From Anaeromyxobacter paludicola (lineage in GTDB: Bacteria; Myxococcota; Myxococcia; Myxococcales; Anaeromyxobacteraceae), in assembly GCF_023169965.1 (NCBI RefSeq), contig NZ_AP025592.1, positions 4,362,001 to 4,426,000 on the forward strand: DNA of 64,000 nt. Reading direction: 5' to 3'. Below, in pieces: positions 41,552 through 60,175 of the stretch. The translations under genes and the position numbers were made by a program. Under the pieces are notes generated by a model. That model saw only the letters and a program-made list of their open reading frames with translations. It made no database searches and was not told the DNA's origin. Each line of letters opens with the position of its first letter. The stretch's first letter is position 1.

Positions 41552-41738
41552 GGGGCCGACCACTCTAGCAGAGGACGGCGCGGGCTCATCGGAGTGCCCG
41601 GCGGGCGGGCACTCGGTGCTCGCGGTCCGCACAGCGCGGGGGCGGCTCCCGCCCGGCGCGGCCTGGGGGCGGGCTCCAGAGGGCGGCGCCACCCGCGGCA
41701 CGTGCCTTGCTTCGCCTCCCGGGGAGAACGGAGGCGCC

Positions 41739-54678: not shown

Positions 54679-54763
54679 GAAGTCCACCCTCTCCCGCGAA
54701 GCGGGGGAGGGCGACCCCCGGCGCTCCTCGAAGTCCACCCTCTCCCGCGAAGCGGGGGAGGGC
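54679..54763. repeat. Two 34-bp direct repeats with CCTCTCCCGC hairpins
   Basis: Copies at 54679-54712 and 54730-54763 are identical (gaagtccaccctctcccgcg, then aagcgggggagggc), 51 bp apart. Each has an inverted repeat (ccctctcccgc / gcgggggaggg). A relative lies near 58036. They fill most of the 190 bp before the sensor kinase gene, which starts 14 bp later. Confidence 0.8.
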
Positions 54764-54777
54764 CGGGGAGGGGGCAC

Positions 54778-56508
54778 GTGACTCGACGACTGCTATCGCT
54801 GCTCGCCCTGACGGTCCTCGCCCTCGCGCCCGGCGCCGCCGCGGCCGCCGCCGACCTGTCGCAGCGCGTGCTCCGCGTCGGCGGCGACCGGGACTACCCG
54901 CCCTACGAGTTCCTCGACGCCGACGGCAAGCCCGCCGGCTACAACGTGGACCTCACCCGGGCCATCGCCGAGGTGATGGGGCTGCGGGTCGAGTTCGAGC
55001 TCGGCGCCTGGTCGGCGGCGCGGCAGTCGCTCCGCGAGGGGCGCATCGACCTCCTGCAGGGCATGTCCTGGTCGGAGGCGCGGGCGCGAGAGTTCGACCT
55101 GTCGCCGCCCCACACCGTCATCTCCCACGCCATCTTCGCCCGGCGCGACGGGCGGGCGGCGCTGTCGCTGGAGGAGCTCCGCGGGCGCTCGGTGGCGGTC
55201 CACCGGGACGGCATCATGGACGAGACGCTCACCGGGATGGGGCTCGGCCAGGAGCTGCGCCGGACCGATACCCCCGCCGACGCGCTGCGGCTGGTGGCGG
55301 CCGGCAAGGCCGACTTCGCCGTGGTGGCCGAGCTGCCCGGGATCTGGCTCACCCGCGCCCTCAAGCTCGACAACGTCGTCCCGGTCGCCCACGACGTCGC
55401 CTCGCAGCGCTACGGCTACGCGGCCCGCCACGGCGACGCCGAGCTCATGGCCCGCGTCGTCGAGGGGCTCGCCATCGTGAAGAAGACCGGCCGGTACGAC
55501 GCCATCCGGCAGAAGTGGCTGGGGGTGCTCGAGCAGGGTCGGCCGAGCTGGGCCGAGTACGCCAGGTACGGCGCCGTGCTGCTCCTGCCGGTGGTGGTGG
55601 TGCTCGGCGGCACCGTCGTCTGGACCCGCTCGCTGCAGCACGAGGTGGCGCAGCGGACCGCGCTCCTCGCCCGCGAGGTGGCGGAGCGGCAGCAGGCGGT
55701 GGAGCAGCTGCGGCTCAACCAGGCGCAGCTGGTGCAGGCCGACAAGATGGCGGCGCTCGGCGTGCTGGTCTCGGGCGTGGCCCACGAGATCAACAACCCG
55801 AACGGCTACCTCCTCCTCAACCTGCCGGTGCTGAAGGACGTGGTCCTCGACGCGGTGGAGCCGCTCGAGGAGCGCTACCGCGCCGAGGGTGACTTCCGGG
55901 TGGGCGGCCTGCGCTGGTCCCGGCTGCGGGAGGAGCTCCCGGAGATGCTCGGCGAGATGATCGAGGGCTCGCGGCGCATCAAGCGGATCGTCGAGGACCT
56001 GAAGGACTTCGCCCGCCAGGAGGACGCGCCGCGGCTCGCGCCGCTCGAGCTCAACGGCGTGGTCGCGGCGGCGCTGCGGCTCGTCGGCAACTCGATCAAG
56101 GGGGCGACGCGCCACTTCGAGGTGTCGTACGCGGACGGGCTGCCGCGGGTGCGCGGCAACGCCCAGCGGCTCGAGCAGGTGGTGGTGAACCTGGTGCTGA
56201 ACGCCTGCCAGTCGCTCCCGGACCCCGGCCGCGCCGTGCGCGTCAGCACGCGCCACGACCCGCGGGAGCGCGCGGTCCTGCTGGTGGTCGAGGACGAGGG
56301 CGTGGGCATCCCTCCCGAGCACCTGTCCCGCCTGACCGATCCCTTCTTCACCACCAAGCGGGAGAGCGGTGGCACCGGCCTCGGGCTCTCGGTATCCTCG
56401 GGCATCGTGACCGAGCACGGCGGCACCCTGCGGTTCAGCTCGCGCGAGGGCGCCGGCACCACCGCGGTGGTCTCGCTCCCGGTCGCGGCCGAGGAGGGGG
56501 CGGCGTGA
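54778..56508 (+). CDS. Sensor histidine kinase with periplasmic SBP domain
   Basis: The 576-residue protein starts at GTG 54778. After a signal/membrane N-terminus, residues 30-250 are an SBP_bac_3-type periplasmic binding domain (RVGGDRDYPPYEFLDADGKP, FAVVAELPGIWLTRAL, YDAIRQKWLGVLEQG). A membrane helix (VLLLPVVVVLGGTVV, about 265-280) and coiled linker follow. The kinase core has ALGVLVSGVAHEINNPNGYL (phospho-accepting His), VNLVLNACQSLPDP (N box), EDEGVGIPPEHL (G1) and GGTGLGLSVSSGIV (G2). It should sense a periplasmic ligand, possibly a C4-dicarboxylate, and phosphorylate the overlapping NtrC-type regulator. Confidence 0.93.
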   Translation: MTRRLLSLLALTVLALAPGAAAAAADLSQRVLRVGGDRDYPPYEFLDADGKPAGYNVDLTRAIAEVMGLRVEFELGAWSAARQSLREGRIDLLQGMSWSEARAREFDLSPPHTVISHAIFARRDGRAALSLEELRGRSVAVHRDGIMDETLTGMGLGQELRRTDTPADALRLVAAGKADFAVVAELPGIWLTRALKLDNVVPVAHDVASQRYGYAARHGDAELMARVVEGLAIVKKTGRYDAIRQKWLGVLEQGRPSWAEYARYGAVLLLPVVVVLGGTVVWTRSLQHEVAQRTALLAREVAERQQAVEQLRLNQAQLVQADKMAALGVLVSGVAHEINNPNGYLLLNLPVLKDVVLDAVEPLEERYRAEGDFRVGGLRWSRLREELPEMLGEMIEGSRRIKRIVEDLKDFARQEDAPRLAPLELNGVVAAALRLVGNSIKGATRHFEVSYADGLPRVRGNAQRLEQVVVNLVLNACQSLPDPGRAVRVSTRHDPRERAVLLVVEDEGVGIPPEHLSRLTDPFFTTKRESGGTGLGLSVSSGIVTEHGGTLRFSSREGAGTTAVVSLPVAAEEGAA

Positions 56509-57908
56509 GCGGGCGCTACCCGTCCTTCGCGATCGTGGCCGTGGACGACGAGCCGGCCTGGCTGCGCTCGCTCTCGCTGGTGCTGGAGCGGGCCGGGATC
56601 GACCACCTCGTGCCGTGCCAGGACGCCCGCGAGCTCCCGGCCCTCCTCGCCCGGGAGGACGTGGGGCTCGTGCTCCTCGACCTCAACATGCCCCACCTCT
56701 CCGGCGAGGAGGTGCTGGCGCGGGTCGCCGCCGAGCACCCCGGCGTGGCGGTGATCGTCGTCTCCGGGATGAACCAGGTCGAGACCGCCGTCCGCTGCGT
56801 CAAGCTCGGCGCCTTCGACTACTTCGTGAAGACGGCGGAGGAGGACCGGCTCGTCGGCGGGGTGCTGCGCGCGGTGCGCATGCTCGAGCTCGAGCGCGAG
56901 AACCGCGACATGGCGAGCCGGGTGCTCTCGGGGACGGTGGCGCGCCCGGAGGCCTTCGCCGGCATCGTCACCCGGGATCGGGCGATGCTCTCGATCTTCT
57001 CCTACCTCGAGGCGGTGGCGCCGAGCCCGCAGCCGCTCCTGGTGCTGGGCGAGAGCGGGGTGGGGAAGGAGCTCTTCGCCCGCGCCGCCCACGCCCTCTC
57101 CGGCAGGCCGGGGCCGCTCGTGGCCGTGAACGCGGCCGGGCTCGACGAGGCGATGTTCGCGGACACGCTCTTCGGCCACGCGCGCGGCGCCTTCACGGGC
57201 GCCGACCAGGCGCGGCGGGGGATGATCGAGGAGGCGGCGGACGGCACGCTCTTCCTCGACGAGATCGGCGACCTCGGCACCGGCTCGCAGGTGAAGCTGC
57301 TGCGCCTCCTGCAGGAGGGCGAGTACTTCCCGCTCGGCAGCGACCGGCCGCGGCGGCTGCAGGCGCGCGTGATCGTGGCGACCCACCAGGACCTGGCCGC
57401 GCGCCAGGCGGCCGGCACCTTCCGGCGCGACCTCTACTACCGGCTCTGCACGCACCAGGTGCGCATCCCGCCGCTGCGCGAGCGCAAGGGCGACCTCCCG
57501 CTGCTGCTCGACCACTTCCTCGAGGAGACCGCGCGCGAGCTCGGCAAGAAGCGGCCGACCGCGCCCAGGGAGCTCGTGGCGCTCCTCGGCACCTACGCCT
57601 TCCCCGGGAACGTGCGCGAGCTGCGGGCGATGGTGGCCGACGCGGTCAGCCTGCACCGCGAGAAGGTGCTCTCGATGGACGCCTTCGTGGCCGCCATCGA
57701 GCGCGGCGGCGGGGCGGCGTCGCCGGGCGCGGCGCCGGCCGCCAACCCGTTCGCCCCGGTGGAGCAGCTCCCCACCATCCACGACGCGGTCGAGCTGCTG
57801 GTCCAGGAGGCGCTCTCGCGGGCCGGGGGGAACCAGACCCTGGCCGCCCGGCTGCTCGGGATCACGCAGTCGGCGCTCAGCAAGCGGCTCAAGGCGGCGC
57901 GGGGCTGA
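56505..57908 (+). CDS. Sigma-54-dependent response regulator (NtrC family)
   Basis: The 467-residue protein from GTG 56505 overlaps the kinase stop (GTGA). The receiver domain (1-125) has VDDEPAWL and LLDLNMPHLSG with the phospho-accepting Asp. The AAA+ domain (about 145-375) has Walker A GESGVGKELFARAAH, the sigma-54 contact loop ARGAFTGADQ, and Walker B GTLFLDEIGDLG with GNVRELRAMV. A Fis-type helix-turn-helix ends the protein (AGGNQTLAARLLGITQSALS). It is the likely activator of the sigma-54 promoter at 58214 before the Dcu carrier gene, since tandem palindromes lie in front of that gene. Confidence 0.95.
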   Translation: MSGRYPSFAIVAVDDEPAWLRSLSLVLERAGIDHLVPCQDARELPALLAREDVGLVLLDLNMPHLSGEEVLARVAAEHPGVAVIVVSGMNQVETAVRCVKLGAFDYFVKTAEEDRLVGGVLRAVRMLELERENRDMASRVLSGTVARPEAFAGIVTRDRAMLSIFSYLEAVAPSPQPLLVLGESGVGKELFARAAHALSGRPGPLVAVNAAGLDEAMFADTLFGHARGAFTGADQARRGMIEEAADGTLFLDEIGDLGTGSQVKLLRLLQEGEYFPLGSDRPRRLQARVIVATHQDLAARQAAGTFRRDLYYRLCTHQVRIPPLRERKGDLPLLLDHFLEETARELGKKRPTAPRELVALLGTYAFPGNVRELRAMVADAVSLHREKVLSMDAFVAAIERGGGAASPGAAPAANPFAPVEQLPTIHDAVELLVQEALSRAGGNQTLAARLLGITQSALSKRLKAARG

Positions 57909-57967: not shown

Positions 57968-58087
57968 AGCCACCCCAGGTGACCTCTTCCCCTCTCCCGC
58001 TCGGGAGCACGTCCCGCGGGTAGCGCCGCGTCGTTCCCCTCTCCCGCGGAGCGGGGGAGGGTGAGGGAGGGGGTGGGACTCGCTGGG

Positions 58088-58136
58088 CCATGAGGAAAGT
58101 CATGGCCCCTCCGCCGAGCCATGAGCGCGCTCATGC
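58088..58136. promoter_or_regulatory. Tandem CCATGA-N6-TCATG operators (likely activator sites)
   Basis: Two palindromes share the half-site CCATGA and TCATG: one at 58088-58105 (spacer ggaaag) and one at 58119-58136 (spacer gcgcgc). Their centres are 31 bp apart, close to three DNA turns. They lie about 100-150 bp before the predicted sigma-54 start site, as enhancer sites for NtrC-type activators do. Confidence 0.75.
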
Positions 58137-58213
58137 CCCTTCGCCGCCGCGCCGGGCCCGCTCGAGCGGGGAAAGCGCAGCCCCGGCGCGGGCTTTCGCC
58201 GCCCGGCCCGCTC

Positions 58214-58229
58214 CGGCATCCCGCTTGCT
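58214..58229 (+). promoter_or_regulatory. Sigma-54 (-24/-12) promoter of the Dcu carrier gene
   Basis: cGGCAtcccgcTTGCt has GG and GC separated by exactly ten bases and matches the TGGCAC-N5-TTGCW consensus at eight of ten main positions. Transcription would start about 12 bases downstream, 38 bp before the ATG at 58278. Confidence 0.82.
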
Positions 58230-58277
58230 CCTGGGGAGGTGCGCGCCGGGCCCGGTCCCAGCGCACGGAGGCTCACC

Positions 58278-59845: not shown

Positions 59846-60175
59846 ATGCTGCAGGCGCGGTTCGAGGAGAGGCAGGGCGCGCTCCTGGTCACGCCGGAGG
59901 TCCCGGCGCTGGACGCCGAGGCCGCTCCCGGTCTGCGGGAGCTGGTCGGGGAGCGGGCGCGGGGGCGCGCGCTGGTGGTGATGTCGCTCGACCGCGTCTC
60001 CGAGGTGGACTCCTCCGGGCTGGCGGGGCTGGTCGCGGTGTGGAAGCGCATGGCCCCGGGGGGCGAGCTGCGGCTCGCCGCCGTGCCGCCGCGCGTCCGG
60101 GCCGTGCTGCACGCCACCCACCTCGACGAGGTCTTCCCGCTCTTCGAGGACGCCGCCGCCGCCCTCCCCCGATGA
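59846..60175 (+). CDS. STAS-domain protein
   Basis: The 109-residue protein (MLQARFEERQGALLVTPEVP) has the STAS anti-sigma-antagonist fold with VVMSLDRVSEVDSSGLAGLV, where the serine in DSSGL is the usual phosphorylation site, then RLAAVPPRVRAVLHATHLDE. Its ATGA overlap with the GT2 gene ties it to polysaccharide synthesis. It may be a regulatory partner of the synthase or of a separate kinase/anti-sigma. No anti-sigma gene is adjacent in the window. Confidence 0.88.
   Translation: MLQARFEERQGALLVTPEVPALDAEAAPGLRELVGERARGRALVVMSLDRVSEVDSSGLAGLVAVWKRMAPGGELRLAAVPPRVRAVLHATHLDEVFPLFEDAAAALPR

Follow-up and report, generated by a model that had tools for sequence, protein, structure and literature searches.

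A putative sigma-54 switch with a tandem enhancer upstream of the dcu carrier gene of Anaeromyxobacter paludicola

In the window, that is, the whole 64,000-nucleotide stretch of Anaeromyxobacter paludicola DNA analysed here, a sensor kinase gene and a regulator gene precede a gene for a Dcu carrier (Table 1). The Pfam domains agreed with an earlier note on this DNA, made from its sequence alone, which had placed a kinase with a periplasmic binding domain and an NtrC-type activator upstream of the carrier. The structure model of the kinase suggested a membrane helix at about residues 258-286. The kinase and regulator reading frames share 4 bp at the kinase stop. By its Pfam domains and translation, the regulator has the architecture of group I enhancer-binding proteins, with a receiver, an AAA+ domain that carries GAFTGA, and a Fis HTH. 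The carrier passed three NCBIfam Dcu models (448 bits for TIGR00770, against a cut-off of 331). No NCBIfam equivalog named either the kinase or the regulator, and the best scores were far under the cut-offs. A STAS-domain protein is encoded 3' of the carrier (59846-60175).

Table 1. Features of the dcu locus, in window positions
Feature	Position	Strand	Basis
Sensor histidine kinase	54778..56508	+	Pfam SBP_bac_3 (Venus-flytrap type), HisKA, HATPase_c; match to 3H7M
NtrC-type response regulator	56505..57908	+	Pfam receiver, sigma-54 AAA+, Fis-type HTH; open reading frame; alignment with 20 relatives
Distal enhancer palindrome (putative)	58085..58108, core 58088-58105	.	GGGCCATGA-N6-TCATGGCCC; sequence, genome counts, comparison
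Proximal enhancer palindrome (putative)	58119..58136	.	CCATGAGCGCGCTCATGC; position kept in relatives, and distance in Geobacteraceae
-24/-12 (sigma-54) promoter, predicted	58214..58229	+	CGGCATCCCGCTTGCT, GG-N10-GC; in register in 8/8 pair-linked family dcu genes
Ribosome-binding site GGAGG	58267..58271	+	Sequence
DcuA/DcuB-family anaerobic C4-dicarboxylate carrier, 451 aa	58278..59633	+	PF03605, E 1e-134

The two palindromes and the -24/-12 site reported before the carrier were all present in the sequence at the positions given for them. The distal palindrome, GGGCCATGA-GGAAAG-TCATGGCCC, has perfect arms of 9 bp. The proximal palindrome reads CCATGA-GCGCGC-TCATGC, and its inner part, CATGAGCGCGCTCATG (58120-58135), is a perfect palindrome of 16 bp. 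The consensus proposed for them, CCATGA-N6-TCATGG, describes the first site, but the second ends in C. Their centres (58096.5 and 58127.5) are 31 bp apart, and lie 118.5 and 87.5 bp, respectively, upstream of the GG of the -24 element. The motif CATGA-N6-TCATG occurs at only six places in the 4.59-Mb genome, two of which are the dcu palindromes. The other four fall in long open frames, and none has a -24/-12 match closer than 400 bp; the exact search, which the note had suggested for finding further targets, returned no second one. A looser dyad pattern, with three mismatches allowed, had 358 matches in the genome versus 158 for the reversed control and added nothing useful.

The predicted promoter at 58214 contains GG-N10-GC and is close to TGGCAC-N5-TTGCT, and an rpoN gene is present in the genome. 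Such a match is not significant alone, as the window held two where 2.9 were expected at the same stringency; the weight of the site therefore comes from its conservation in register. The start site of dcu is predicted to lie near 58240. The second consensus match of the window, CGGCACGTGCCTTGCT (41696-41711), is no more than expected by chance; both strands have long open frames that overlap it.

We examined 24 Anaeromyxobacteraceae genomes, 11 of which had a dcu homologue. The kinase/regulator pair lay directly upstream of eight family dcu genes, that of A. paludicola included, and GGCA-N7-TGCT preceded all eight, 39-74 bp ahead of the start codon. Loss of the palindromes in close relatives had been named as a test of the proposed unit. 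CATGAG-N4-CTCATG dyads (at least 10 of 12 bases) were retained before six of the eight genes, with one to three each, and the remaining two loci (L026 and L027) carried altered, related sites with CATGAG/GGAATG half-sites at matching places. Across the eight intergenic regions there were 14 such dyads, versus 0.03 expected from shuffles (maximum 1). The centre of the proximal site was 86.5-87.5 bp from the GG in three genomes and 73.5-74.5 bp in three others. In the relatives, distal sites were found about 143-187 bp upstream of the GG, and three of these relatives have two of them spaced by 18 bp, whereas A. paludicola has one distal site only. Because the relatives' distal sites stand at other distances, the spacing of about three turns emphasised earlier holds in the A. 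paludicola window and is local to that genome. Three dcu genes without a pair (G010 L009/L028, the second copy of G011 at L018/L029, and G122 L162; carriers 80-86% identical) had neither the dyads nor a GGCA-N7-TGC promoter ahead of the start.

The same layout was seen in a second family. A dcuB gene 75-80% identical to the A. paludicola carrier gene product was present in 25 of 48 Geobacteraceae genomes, and 26 loci were compared, one of them from an additional Geobacter MAG. The regulator lay within the 1.5-kb flank at 25 of the 26 loci, and a -24/-12 site was likewise found at 25. In an unbiased distance scan, dyad pairing was best 86 bp before the GG (mean 5.64 of 10 pairs, versus 2.44 overall), followed by 176 bp. 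Dyads with 7 or more of the 10 pairs, typically TGCCATAGCC-N3-GGTTATGGCA, occurred 86-88 bp before the GG at 18 of 25 loci; related strains are not independent, so the Geobacteraceae counts overstate the evidence, although several genomes differ in dyad sequence. Geobacter dcuB and the A. paludicola gene thus share the carrier family, the family of the adjacent pair, the proximal enhancer distance and the sigma-54 promoter, but differ in their half-sites, which are ATAACC/GGTTAT in Geobacteraceae and CATGAG/CTCATG in A. paludicola. As judged from these comparisons, the putative enhancer-promoter layout is conserved between the two families, with the half-site recoded. The dcuB gene of G. sulfurreducens was reported in 2009 to be RpoN-dependent, with its start mapped by primer extension, and the available text of that report names neither an enhancer nor an activator (PMC2725144). 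The dcuB and dctA genes of G. bemidjiensis are each preceded by a pair of this kind, described as "possibly linked to dicarboxylate transport", and the enhancer is not named in the available text (PMC2996986).

The sensor domain of the kinase is 65% identical to PDB 3H7M (E 1.2e-96) and has the same fold, with an rmsd of 1.3 over 222 columns. The link from 3H7M to HK29 rests on a shared paper title and on PMC4352136. According to the available text of the latter, HK29s of G. sulfurreducens gave a closed, unliganded crystal form, and its authors were reported to have suggested that the flytrap might not open (PMC4352136). Work on HK29 dealt with the domain on its own, for which no ligand was known. 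The A. paludicola kinase, with its HK29-type sensor, has an adjacent sigma-54 regulator. The exact HK29s sequence, searched for in order to place it at G. sulfurreducens dcuB, occurred in none of the 48 Geobacteraceae genomes. HK29-type sensor domains were found in up to seven copies per genome in the Geobacteraceae G147 and G160-G171. In an alignment with the arginine/glutamine-binding AncQR, Arg102 was kept, and it was invariant among the aligned relatives; this conserved Arg presumably holds the alpha-carboxylate in amino-acid-binding relatives. Ala184 occupies the position of an AncQR Asp that we take to hold the alpha-amine in those relatives. 3H7M and the checked relatives likewise have Ala, with Gly as the one exception. 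This replacement would fit a ligand that has no alpha-amine.

Sister pairs precede other carriers. Group B regulators (70-74% identical) stand before DctA genes in Anaeromyxobacteraceae with their own -24/-12 sites, and their dyads, for example CATTCC-N4-GGAATG or CATGCC-N4-GGCATG, form a pair spaced by 18 bp. Group C regulators (67-68% identical) precede aspA-dcu2, with TGGCAC-N5-TTGCC; the same distance scan gave no clear dyad in this aspA-dcu group. The eight dcu-linked regulators grouped as one branch of the regulator tree (support 100/97), and the nine group B regulators formed another (100/100). The HTH recognition region reads TQSALSKRLK in most of the dcu-linked group A, mostly SQPALSKRLK in group B and Geobacter, and TPSALSKRLK in group C. 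Half-site and HTH seem to have changed together, which is a correlation. Among named genomes, the pair family extends to Geobacter and other Desulfuromonadales (with DctA), Geomonas (TRAP) and gammaproteobacteria (SDF carriers, AspA). At one locus (L064, G005:C1:292000-307000) a DctA-type pair is intact but is not directly followed by a recognisable DctA gene, as if its neighbouring target had been lost. A second Geomonas dcu (L161, G147:C55:261000-266649, near a contig end), present as two matching pieces, has its own TGGCATCGCCGATGCT site and is 72-76% identical to the AspA-linked Dcu2.

We consider it highly likely that the locus is a local sigma-54 switch, in which the pair senses a periplasmic C4-dicarboxylate and the regulator acts from the palindromes on the -24/-12 promoter to turn dcu on. 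This reading is supported by the occurrence of the sites and promoter with the adjacent pair and their lack before the three pair-less dcu genes, and by the presence of the same pair family before DctA, AspA-Dcu, TRAP and SDF carriers. In the proposed mechanism, the kinase would sense fumarate, succinate, malate or aspartate in the periplasm through its SBP_bac_3 domain and would alter the phosphorylation of the adjoining regulator in response. The regulator would occupy the palindromes (58088-58136) as an enhancer and then oligomerise, and its GAFTGA loop would remodel the RNA polymerase-sigma-54 complex at 58214-58229, switching dcu on. We infer that the palindromes are bound by the adjoining regulator; from the class of this regulator, the direction would be activation and not repression. 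The unit that the earlier note had assembled, from kinase and NtrC-type activator through tandem enhancer and sigma-54 promoter to Dcu, is supported by the domains, rpoN, the footprint with its negative controls, the Geobacteraceae geometry and the RpoN-dependent dcuB of G. sulfurreducens (PMC2725144).

We infer that the signal is a C4-dicarboxylate. It is possible, though unlikely, that the signal for the pair is aspartate or another amino acid, with Dcu working chiefly to exchange aspartate for fumarate or succinate. Amino acids are the usual ligands of SBP_bac_3 domains. Three Anaeromyxobacteraceae and three gammaproteobacteria have a pair of the family next to aspA, and a gene for an SDF carrier or an Asp/Glu racemase lies close to some pairs. 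However, these aspA-linked pairs fall outside the branch of the regulator tree that holds the dcu and dctA pairs, and the Asp expected to bind an alpha-amine is replaced by Ala184, as it is in the checked relatives, 3H7M among them. The retention of Arg102, the presumed alpha-carboxylate-holding Arg of the amino-acid-binding relatives, argues against a further, rather improbable reading, that the sensor binds no small molecule directly but is a flytrap that always stays closed and is read out by way of a partner, with the carrier, for example, as co-sensor. Such a reading would be in keeping with the closed and unliganded HK29s in the available text of PMC4352136, and with E. coli, where the available source text has DctA working with the sensor DcuS. 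That the palindromes bind an unrelated regulator, such as a repressor, while the pair acts elsewhere is very improbable: palindromes of this size are used by several regulator classes, and the conservation of the sites, though well supported, is silent on which protein binds them, but the sites and the -24/-12 element go with the adjacent pair and are absent at pair-less dcu genes, the geometry to the -24 is kept in Geobacteraceae though the half-sites change, and half-sites vary among regulator subfamilies with different HTH residues.

The switch is very probably real and of a known kind, with its DNA sites now mapped. Rhizobial DctB/DctD consists of an adjacent kinase and NtrC-type activator with a tandem enhancer and a sigma-54 promoter; its classical target is DctA, and DctB senses with a double Cache/PAS-like periplasmic domain. 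The likeness to this system drawn by the note holds in function, as the A. paludicola locus also combines an adjacent kinase and NtrC-type activator, a putative tandem enhancer, a predicted sigma-54 promoter and a C4-dicarboxylate carrier. It does not extend to the sensor, where an SBP_bac_3 domain, a relative of HK29s, is the only one detected, or to the target, which is Dcu; DctA itself is preceded by the sister group B pairs. At glnAp2, in nitrogen control, NtrC acts from two palindromic enhancers, around -108 and -140, that are separated by about three turns. The A. paludicola palindromes lie similarly at about -112 and -143 by the predicted start, with the 31-bp spacing limited to that genome. 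FgrM, considered as a possible fumarate regulator, was rejected, being a flagellar activator. In E. coli, DcuS/DcuR controls dcuB in response to fumarate, with a Cache/PAS sensor and a LuxR-type regulator. The A. paludicola switch would likewise control a Dcu carrier gene, but has an SBP_bac_3 sensor, an NtrC-type regulator and a predicted sigma-54 promoter; the E. coli dcuB promoter is of the RpoD type in the available text of PMC2725144.

The RpoN dependence of G. sulfurreducens dcuB and the adjacency of pair and carrier in G. bemidjiensis are already published, as the available parts of those reports state. What is new, at the level of sequence comparison, is the mapped putative enhancer, its geometry, its absence where the pair is lacking, and the apparent recoding of half-sites among paralogues. 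No earlier description of these sites was found in the open-licence literature, outside which most subscription journals fall. A likely activator and enhancer can now be named for dcuB, the carrier required for fumarate respiration in Geobacter, and the HK29s sensor domain, solved in 2009 without ligand, gains a testable ligand class and a predicted role. We lean towards the broader view that a single sensor/activator family has been duplicated and its copies put to use with several carriers of C4-dicarboxylates and aspartate (Dcu, DctA, AspA-Dcu, TRAP and SDF). The enhancer-promoter geometry would have been kept, and half-site and HTH residues would have been recoded jointly in each branch, so that parallel copies could work in one cell without cross-talk; HK29s would be a sensor of this family and bind a dicarboxylate. 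Since there are several family copies per genome and the subfamilies have distinct half-sites, they offer a natural test of insulation among paralogous enhancer-binding proteins.

A copy of a REP-like palindromic repeat, CTCTCCCGC-N2-AGCGGGGGAGGG, separates the regulator gene from the putative enhancer (58036-58062), and two more copies precede the kinase gene (54686-54763). Genome-wide, the repeat had 87 forward and 90 reverse matches, and most of the exact copies among the matches listed sit beyond 2.0 Mb of the 4.59-Mb chromosome.
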